Shown here: positions 17,826 through 21,331 of the stretch, in pieces | Layout: every line of letters starts with the position of its first letter | Numbering within the stretch: the stretch's first letter is position 1 | Assembly: GCA_947564425.1 (NCBI GenBank) | Contig: CANOBU010000014.1 | Span: 1 to 33,647, forward strand | Source: an uncultured Eggerthellaceae bacterium | GTDB taxonomy: Bacteria > Actinomycetota > Coriobacteriia > Coriobacteriales > Eggerthellaceae | Direction of reading: 5' to 3' | DNA length: 33,647 bases | The notes under the pieces: generated by a model | Seen by the model: the letters and a program-made list of their open reading frames with translations, nothing else | Databases searched by the model: none | What the model was told of the DNA's origin: nothing | Translations under genes and position numbers: made by a program

Positions 17826-18092
17826 ATGGCGATGTGCGTACCAGTACGGGACATGAAGAATACGGCGGATTTCGCCGCACTGGTGGAGCAAGAGGGAGAC
17901 GTTGCCGTCACCAAGAACGGATACAGCGCCTTCCATTGCCTGAGCGAAAGCGAGTACCGCATCCTGCATGAGGAGTCGGCGAAGGCGAAGCTGCTCTCCC
18001 GCATGATGCTCGCCGAAGAAGAGGCGGCAGCGGGGCGCTATGCCGATTTCGACGATTTCGCGCAGACCATAAGAGCCGAATATGGCTTATAG
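17826..18092 (+). CDS. Phd/YefM-family antitoxin
   Basis: An 88-residue protein beginning MAMCVPVRDMKNTADFAALV, followed by DVAVTKNGYSAFHCLSESEY. This is the Phd/YefM DNA-binding fold, in which the N-terminal half binds the operator and the acidic C terminus neutralises the toxin. The ribosome site GGGAGGTGAT is strong. It overlaps the toxin gene by 11 bases. Autoregulation at its own promoter is expected from the family. Confidence 0.85.
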   Translation: MAMCVPVRDMKNTADFAALVEQEGDVAVTKNGYSAFHCLSESEYRILHEESAKAKLLSRMMLAEEEAAAGRYADFDDFAQTIRAEYGL

Positions 18093-18387
18093 GGTCGTAA
18101 TCCTGGAAGAAGCCCAGCGGGAATACCGCGGCATCGTCGATTACCTTGCGAATGTGCTGAAAAGCCGCCAAGCAGCCATCGGCTTCATGGATGAATTCGC
18201 CCGTCAGGTTGCGTTGATAGAAGAGAATCCCACCCTGTTCGCGCTGTCCCGCCTGCCGGAACTCGCCGCTTATGGATATCGGACTTGCTGCGTCAACAAC
18301 TACATCATGCTGTATAAGACCGCCGAGGACCTGGTGATGATCGCCCACATCTTCCACCAATCCCAGAACTACGCGAAATCGGTGTAG
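18082..18387 (+). CDS. ParE/RelE-family toxin
   Basis: A 101-residue basic protein with the ParE/RelE pattern: YRVVILEEAQREYRGIVDYL at the N terminus, a central VALIEENPTLF helix and strand, and the C-terminal IAHIFHQSQNYAKSV. RelE-type members cut mRNA on the ribosome and ParE members poison gyrase; the N terminus favours ParE, but the activity cannot be fixed by sequence. It overlaps the antitoxin and ends 1 base before the tRNA-Leu gene on the other strand. Confidence 0.83.
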   Translation: MAYRVVILEEAQREYRGIVDYLANVLKSRQAAIGFMDEFARQVALIEENPTLFALSRLPELAAYGYRTCCVNNYIMLYKTAEDLVMIAHIFHQSQNYAKSV

Positions 18388-18388
18388 G

Positions 18389-18473
18389 TGGTAGGAGCGG
18401 TGGGACTCGAACCCACATTCCCGAAGGAGGCGGATTTTAAGTCCGCTGCGTCTGCCAGTTCCGCCACGCTCCC
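18389..18473 (-). tRNA. tRNA-Leu, anticodon TAA, with encoded CCA
   Basis: The 85-base minus-strand sequence folds as a class II tRNA. The acceptor is GGGAGCG with CGCTCCT, the anticodon stem-loop GCGGA-CTTAAAA-TCCGC places TAA, there is a variable arm (CTCCTTCGGGA), the T arm is GTGGG-TTCGAAC-CCCAC-like, and discriminator A is followed by CCA. It decodes UUA/UUG leucine codons. A perfect TATAAT lies upstream at 18487-18492. Confidence 0.95.
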
Positions 18474-20603: not shown

Positions 20604-20993
20604 TTAGTCCTCCATGATATCCAGGCGGTCGATGTAGGCCACCCATTTCTTGAAGGACGCATCGCTTATGGCGTGCTCCATAAGGCAGGCTTCCCGCTCG
20701 GCCGTCTCGGGGGCTATGCCGAGTTCCTTGGCAAGGAAGGTAGTGAGGTACCGGTGGCGTTTGTAGATGGCGCGGCCGTATTTCTGGCCGGAGGCCGTGA
20801 GGGTTATGCCCCCGTAGAAGGGCTGGTCGACATAGCCGTTGTCTTTGAGGTAGTTCACGGCCTTGTTGACCGACGCCTTCGACACCCCTAGGCGGTTGGC
20901 GACATCGACGGAGCGCACCGCCTGCTTGGTCGTGCCGCCCAGCATGACGATGGCTTCGAGGTAGTCCTCGTTCGACATGGACATTTTTTCCAT
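20604..20993 (-). CDS. DtxR/MntR-family metal-dependent repressor
   Basis: A 129-residue regulator with a winged helix at about 8-66 (VDVANRLGVSKASVNKAVNYLKDNGYV) and the dimerisation/metal domain after it. There is no C-terminal SH3-like domain, as in MntR. Probable metal ligands are D10, E13, H80, C103, E106 and H107. Asp at position 10 is MntR-like, while Cys at 103 within EACLMEH is like DtxR/IdeR. The family represses metal uptake genes when loaded with Fe(II) or Mn(II). ATG 20993 is preceded by AAGGAG; an upstream in-frame ATG at 21023 is unsupported. A roughly 200-base leader with terminator-like structure precedes it. Confidence 0.88.
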   Translation of the reverse strand: MEKMSMSNEDYLEAIVMLGGTTKQAVRSVDVANRLGVSKASVNKAVNYLKDNGYVDQPFYGGITLTASGQKYGRAIYKRHRYLTTFLAKELGIAPETAEREACLMEHAISDASFKKWVAYIDRLDIMED

Positions 20994-21060: not shown

Positions 21061-21192
21061 GAAAAACGACGGTCCGCAAAGGGAGAGAGGGGGAGACCTT
21101 TGCGGACCGTATTTTGCGGCAGATGCTGCCGAAGCAGGAATCGGCCGCCGGGTTAACGTTGAATCGGCGGGAGGAGGTCCTCCGATTCGACA
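21061..21192 (-). ncRNA. Candidate small RNA or attenuator leader with C-rich loops
   Basis: A well-formed promoter (21199-21227) predicts a start near 21192. The transcript would open with a hairpin, GTCGAATCGG paired to CCGATTCAAC (one G-T pair), whose loop holds CCTCCTCCC. It would end at the 14-bp terminator-like stem with a C-rich loop and T-run, giving about 130 bases. C-rich loops that can pair with ribosome sites are known in trans-acting small RNAs such as staphylococcal RsaE. It may also be a regulated leader of the metalloregulator gene. No known riboswitch class was recognised. Confidence 0.45.
21062..21110 (-). terminator. Rho-independent terminator-like hairpin in the DtxR-family leader
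   Basis: On the minus strand ACGGTCCGCAAAGG (21110-21097) pairs perfectly with CCTTTGCGGACCGT (21082-21069), and CG plus five T residues (21066-21062) follow. The 14-base loop is TCTCCCCCTCTCTC. On the plus strand the same stem is followed only by ATTTTG. The position is 69 bp upstream of the DtxR-family ATG. Confidence 0.7.
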
Positions 21193-21198
21193 AGTGTT

Positions 21199-21227
21199 AA
21201 TTTAAGATAACTTTTATCAGAGGTCAA
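21199..21227 (-). promoter_or_regulatory. Promoter for the leader/DtxR-family transcript
   Basis: On the minus strand TTGACC (21227-21222) and TAAATT (21204-21199) are 17 bp apart. The spacer contains the small dyad GATAA-CTT-TTATC (21206-21218). The predicted start falls at the base of the first hairpin of the leader. Confidence 0.65.
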
Positions 21228-21244: not shown

Positions 21245-21262
21245 TAAGTTATCCATAACTTA
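21245..21262. promoter_or_regulatory. 18-bp palindrome TAAGTTAT-CC-ATAACTTA, likely operator
   Basis: The two 8-base arms are exact inverse complements. The A/T-rich sequence stands out in G/C-rich DNA and lies 18 bp upstream of the -35 of the leader promoter and about 72 bp upstream of the thrC -10. The core ATAACTT recurs in the promoter spacer. A DtxR/MntR-type autoregulatory site is plausible but not shown. Confidence 0.55.
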
Positions 21263-21331
21263 CTTATTGGGAAAAGGGGGCAGGGGCGGCATCCCGCTCG
21301 GCCCCCGCATCGCCGCCGTAGGGAGCGCCTT

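Follow-up and report, generated by a model that had tools for sequence, protein, structure and literature searches.

A predicted small RNA of Eggerthellaceae, often encoded upstream of dtxR and probably part of the iron regulon

The minus strand in front of a metalloregulator gene in an uncultured Eggerthellaceae bacterium raises the question of whether it encodes a small RNA that acts on its own or a leader that controls the gene behind it. Both possibilities had been proposed in an earlier note on the window, by which we mean the whole stretch of 33,647 nucleotides that was analysed (contig C14 of a 1.67-Mb draft genome). The observation made there was confirmed as a whole and the small RNA reading is strongly supported; judged by comparison of related genomes, the locus is almost certainly a real small-RNA gene. 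The gene behind it begins, as had been noted, with an ATG at position 20993, and its 129-amino acid product exceeds the cut-offs of both PF01325 (N-terminal DNA-binding domain) and PF02742 (metal-binding and dimerisation domain). This DtxR/MntR-type protein is the probable regulator of the RNA. The thrC gene lies divergently in front of the predicted RNA locus, the parts of which are listed in Table 1. Elsewhere in the window, at 17826-18387 (+), two short overlapping open reading frames resemble a Phd/YefM-type antitoxin and a RelE/ParE-type toxin, as judged by eye from their translations, and a tRNA gene at 18392-18473 (-) directly adjoins them.

Table 1. Positions, within the window, of the predicted small RNA, its promoter and operator elements and the adjacent regulator gene.
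Feature	Position	Strand	Basis
Predicted small RNA, about 130 nt, from a start near 21192 to the T run	21061-21192	-	Promoter at the spacing of the family; terminator stem and TTTTT; fold z -7.2
Region, with middle hairpin and C-loop hairpin, that matches the Eggerthellaceae RNA family	21072-21157	-	40.4 bits, E 5e-6
Putative operator box 2, AGTTATCTTAAATTAACA, GTTA-N8-TAAC palindrome spanning the -10 element	21195-21212	-	Present in 54 of 57 copies
Putative operator box 1, second and weaker copy of the same type, 5' of the -35 element	21247-21264	-	PWM 14.6
-35 element TTGACC	21222-21227	-	Relatives keep TTGAC at 17-nt spacing
-10 element TAAATT	21199-21204	-	Promoter match, conserved spacing
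5' hairpin, loop CCTCCTCCC at 21177-21169	21157-21190	-	Folding; specific to the window copy
Middle hairpin	21116-21148	-	Folding, family alignment
Terminator hairpin, perfect 14-bp stem, 14-nt C-rich loop (21096-21083)	21069-21110	-	Sequence, folding; stem covariation
Terminator T run	21062-21066	-	Sequence
DtxR/MntR-type metalloregulator gene (dtxR), 129 aa	20604-20993	-	PF01325 3e-15, PF02742 1.6e-15

The minus strand of this 132-nt element folds at -58.6 kcal/mol, compared with -34.8 kcal/mol for shuffled sequences (z = -7.2; 0 of 200 shuffles folding as well). The promoter that had been read as TTGACC-17-TAAATT is present at 21227-21199; such a match alone is not unusual, 0.6 sites of this kind being expected by chance per region, and the promoter becomes credible because relatives keep a TTGAC-like -35 element at the same 17-nt spacing. 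At the other end, the perfect 14-bp stem followed by five T residues was borne out: the arms ACGGTCCGCAAAGG and CCTTTGCGGACCGT (21110-21097 with 21082-21069) enclose the loop TCTCCCCCTCTCTC, and the dinucleotide CG stands between the stem and TTTTT. A hairpin is also found at the predicted start of the transcript, less regular than the 10-bp stem described before, with seven perfect pairs (GAATCGG/CCGATTC) flanked by two 2-bp stretches. GAATCGG does occur twice on the plus strand, exactly at 21138-21144 and 21161-21167. The structural switch that had been built on these two copies proved weak, since the far pairing has a probability of about 0.004 in the full transcript and is favoured, by 2 kcal/mol, only in a 60-nt nascent piece; the repeat was not seen in the relatives, and the switch is not conserved. 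The most informative part of the RNA is the middle hairpin (21148-21116), which the earlier note did not mention and the loop of which is the most conserved part of the RNA family in relatives.

A DNA similarity search with the element in 60 relatives gave no real match because the sequence diverges while the structure is kept, and synteny with dtxR was therefore used instead. Alignment of the regions upstream of orthologous dtxR genes in 15 relatives, from which the window was excluded, revealed two shared hairpins: the first begins with (C)TGACCCGGCGG and has a loop containing CUCUCGUCUG, and the second has a long C/U-rich loop. Standard pairs occupy 98.5% of the pair cells in this alignment, a share that falls to 34-62% when the partners are slid, and 14 of the 23 pairs show changes on both sides. 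Compensatory changes, which had been named in advance as a test of the proposal, are abundant here and also in a larger alignment of 57 copies, in which double changes affect 22 of the 23 pairs and 307 cells, against 27-45 cells with slid partners. This second alignment was fitted to the covariance model; the alignment of 15 relatives is therefore the cleaner test of covariation. C-rich loop regions are found throughout the family, and a T run lies at most 70 nt away in 40 of the 57 copies. Comparison thus shows a conserved structured RNA with, by prediction, its own promoter and usually its own terminator.

A covariance model built from the 15 relatives without the window (R1) recovered the window copy as a held-out member, the next match in the window having an E value of 0.24, and a search of the whole genome of the window with the same model returned this locus alone (E 2.6e-4). 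Altogether 85 copies were found in 65 of 138 Eggerthellaceae genomes, representing 21 of 48 genera, with one to three copies per carrier; all 15 genomes of the window's genus carry the RNA. A pattern scan put names to some carriers, namely Eggerthella sinensis, Paraeggerthella hongkongensis, Gordonibacter, Rubneribacter and Ellagibacter, and from these the bacterial family is identified as Eggerthellaceae. With the second of the two models that define the family (R1 and R2), which was used for the order- and phylum-wide searches, no member was found outside Eggerthellaceae in samples drawn from the order (299 genomes) and from the phylum (396 genomes). No Rfam family matches the element at gathering or relaxed thresholds, and literature searches returned no small RNA described in Eggerthella or Eggerthellaceae. 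As far as these searches go, the family is previously undescribed and belongs to a known functional class.

The window copy has peculiarities of its own. The motif UCGUCU occupies the middle loop of 56 of the 57 copies, the window copy being the sole exception, with a CUGC-UUCG-GCAG tetraloop hairpin in its place. Its 5' hairpin, which carries CCUCCUCCC, has no counterpart at that place in relatives of the genus, and other genera carry an unpaired CCTCCTCTT at this position. The promoter, operators and terminator predicted for the window copy are intact, and it is therefore probably expressed; having lost UCGUCU, it could be drifting or could act on other targets.

The promoter region links the family to iron. 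Across the family the promoter takes the form TTGAC-N17-TAnnnT. A -35 element that matches at 4 or more of its 6 positions can be recognised in 47 copies, and 43 of these keep the 17-nt spacing; the GTTA-N8-TAAC palindrome spans the -10 element in all but three of the 57 copies. A -10 element can do without the left half of this palindrome, and that half therefore points to an operator. Second boxes are found further upstream in the family, with a median score of 10.4 against -10.5 in shuffles. In the genome of the window, WGTTA-N8-TAACW has exactly two sites, one at the RNA promoter (21195-21212) and the other before feoAB (C18:3598-3615), and the reversed control has none; the corresponding counts in three larger genomes are 6, 15 and 7 against 3, 2 and 1. 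Strict palindrome sites upstream of feoB or feoA in relatives number 19 in 31 kb, where 0.2 would be expected, and the gene order feoA-feoB-RNA-dtxR is frequent. The iron link had only been hinted at in the earlier note and came out strongly. Its strongest evidence is the putative operator shared with feoAB, from which the predicted small RNA very likely belongs to the iron regulon and, by this comparison, its promoter would be under an iron-responsive repressor. The boxes presumably bear a loose resemblance to DtxR/IdeR boxes; from this likeness and from the position of the genes, we infer that they would be read by the DtxR-type protein encoded next door and not by Fur or some other regulator.

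Genes at further operator sites in three relatives are a mixed set according to Pfam, with MATE and ABC transporters, CbiQ, a Trep_Strep membrane protein and a FIVAR surface protein; such a set is compatible with a metal regulon and is not proof of one. The palindromes form clusters in G103 (C1, 438473-442650 and 3576817-3577004) and in G115 (C1, 3100166-3100345), near genes for a MATE transporter, a Trep_Strep membrane protein and a FIVAR-domain surface protein, which are candidate regulon members. Outside the window's genus, five copies (L024, L026, L072, L078 and L094) carry a longer conserved promoter motif, TGTGGAGGAATTGTAAACCATGGTAAACTT, which ends shortly before the -35 element and the left part of which, GGAGGAATTGT, reaches beyond the operator box. 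One genome, G132, holds two near-identical RNA copies at different places (L099 on C93 and L100 on C76). No operator can be recognised at about the usual distance in either of them, and a repeated GCAGCAGG-like sequence precedes both; they are possibly recent duplicates read from elsewhere.

The position of many copies invites a reading in which the RNA acts in cis, as a leader or attenuator that governs read-through into dtxR. Forty-six of the 85 copies do lie 40-350 nt upstream of dtxR on the same strand, dtxR paralogs included, and in two close relatives (L022 and L023, with a gap of only 68 nt) dtxR shows no obvious promoter element of its own. An attenuator or riboswitch of dtxR would nevertheless be expected always in its leader, and for the other 39 copies no dtxR gene was found directly behind the RNA, a few of them being cut off by contig ends. 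Five of these are within 5 kb of feoB; for 34, the contig has no dtxR immediately behind the RNA and no feoB at a distance of up to 5 kb. Short contigs limit some of the 34, but the complete genomes G103 and G104 also have such copies. Furthermore, 19 of 30 dtxR genes (0.12 expected) have an extended -10 element of their own, conserved and mostly 36-40 nt before the start; it is present also in genomes without the RNA there, while no conserved antiterminator was seen and the alternative pairing is weak and specific to the window. The dtxR promoter element and the copies away from dtxR therefore make the leader the second-best model, and an unlikely one; the attenuator proposed in the earlier note is not supported. 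In six genomes (G021, G115, G124, G131, G138 and G139) there are two dtxR paralogs, each with its own RNA 40-230 nt upstream, which suggests that the pair was copied as a unit. It is a tentative idea, and a rather doubtful one, that dtxR and the RNA form a paired module copied together in which each regulator may control its own RNA; if true, such pairs would give parallel, possibly metal-specific, small-RNA circuits within one cell. The DtxR-type regulator has 9 matches in genome G112 and 8 in G133, against the usual one or two.

The hairpins might also be nothing more than the terminator of an upstream unit, only promoter and terminator being of importance. A strong terminator is indeed present and the divergent thrC gene is close by, but a terminator would not need anything like the conservation seen in the loops and the middle hairpin, the family has copies at unrelated places, and its promoter points towards the hairpins; covariation already made this reading unlikely, and taken with the rest we regard it as highly improbable. 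A different possibility is an iron-regulated trans-acting RNA that mainly binds a protein, as a sponge or a chaperone ligand, through UCGUCU and the C-rich loops. Such recognition would account for a near-invariant middle loop on a stem that covaries, as is expected of a recognised loop, yet the window copy lacks UCGUCU and C-rich loops pair with mRNA in known Gram-positive and actinobacterial small RNAs (PMC9410917, PMC8628891); we give protein binding as the main function little credence. The best explanation, and in our opinion a likely one, is a free-standing, trans-acting small RNA with C-rich loops that would be regulated by DtxR, induced by iron starvation and devoted to sparing iron.

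Since the RNA gene and the iron-uptake genes share this putative DNA switch, the RNA probably turns off enzymes that use iron when little of it is available. In the mechanism that we propose, the metal-loaded DtxR-type protein would sit on both GTTA-N8-TAAC boxes and block the RNA promoter as long as iron is plentiful. When iron falls, the RNA would be made together with FeoAB, and its C-rich loops would pair with the Shine-Dalgarno regions of mRNAs for iron enzymes; this pairing would lower the translation of iron-containing enzymes and so save iron, as with IsrR, FsrA and MrsI. C-rich loops that could serve as seeds of the FsrA/IsrR type are found in the window copy and in the family. The loops are conserved, so that the pairing with ribosome-binding sites suggested in the earlier note is plausible, and we lean towards iron sparing through loop pairing with some reserve. 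A search for complements of the loop before ATG codons was dominated by likeness to Shine-Dalgarno sequences, which is partly why such sites are common, and gave few recurrent genes. In the genome of the window, one of three loop-complementary sites precedes a gene for a 4Fe-4S protein, the search having used the loop of the family, which is missing from the window copy.

Eggerthellaceae such as Eggerthella, Gordonibacter, Paraeggerthella and Ellagibacter are frequent in the gut and have many enzymes that depend on iron, for respiration or for the conversion of drugs or polyphenols. Through a conserved RNA tied to their iron operon, one could begin to study how these bacteria ration iron. Iron-sparing small RNAs, a class that includes RyhB, PrrF, FsrA, IsrR and MrsI, arose independently in several lineages.

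Among structured RNAs of other kinds, the 6C (B11) RNA of Actinobacteria has two stem-loops with C-rich loops and comes from the same phylum; to our knowledge it is not linked to iron, and its Rfam model gave no match in the window region (E up to 10) or in six relatives (E up to 1). The best sub-threshold Rfam match was the alphaproteobacterial ar14 (RF02344), at 27 bits against a cut-off of 58.8; it shares CCUCCUCCC loops, a likeness of loops only with an RNA of another phylum. The likeness to IsrR, FsrA and MrsI is one of function and layout, with no homology claimed. IsrR of Staphylococcus is an iron-sparing RNA with three C-rich single-stranded regions and two Fur boxes (PMC9410917). It shares with the Eggerthellaceae RNA the C-rich regions, a promoter with two (there putative) metal-regulator boxes and a terminator of its own, and its conservation within one bacterial genus is a further likeness (PMC9410917); it differs in being regulated by Fur and not, as is probable for the Eggerthellaceae RNA, by a DtxR-type protein, in phylum, in genomic place and in structure. 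FsrA of Bacillus subtilis, as summarised in PMC9410917, is an iron-sparing RNA with a C-rich motif directed against Shine-Dalgarno sequences; in contrast to the Eggerthellaceae RNA, the probable regulator of which is of the DtxR type, it is regulated by Fur, needs the helper proteins FbpABC and belongs to another phylum. MrsI (ncRv11846) of Mycobacterium tuberculosis has a box for IdeR, a member of the DtxR family, in its promoter and an iron-sparing role (PMC8628891). Like the Eggerthellaceae RNA it is actinobacterial, and it has a promoter box of the DtxR-family type, as is proposed for that RNA, but it comes from another class and its gene is flanked by blaI and rv1847, with neither dtxR nor feo next to it. 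With the RNA family described here, the iron-sparing RNAs would gain a member that is probably under DtxR control.
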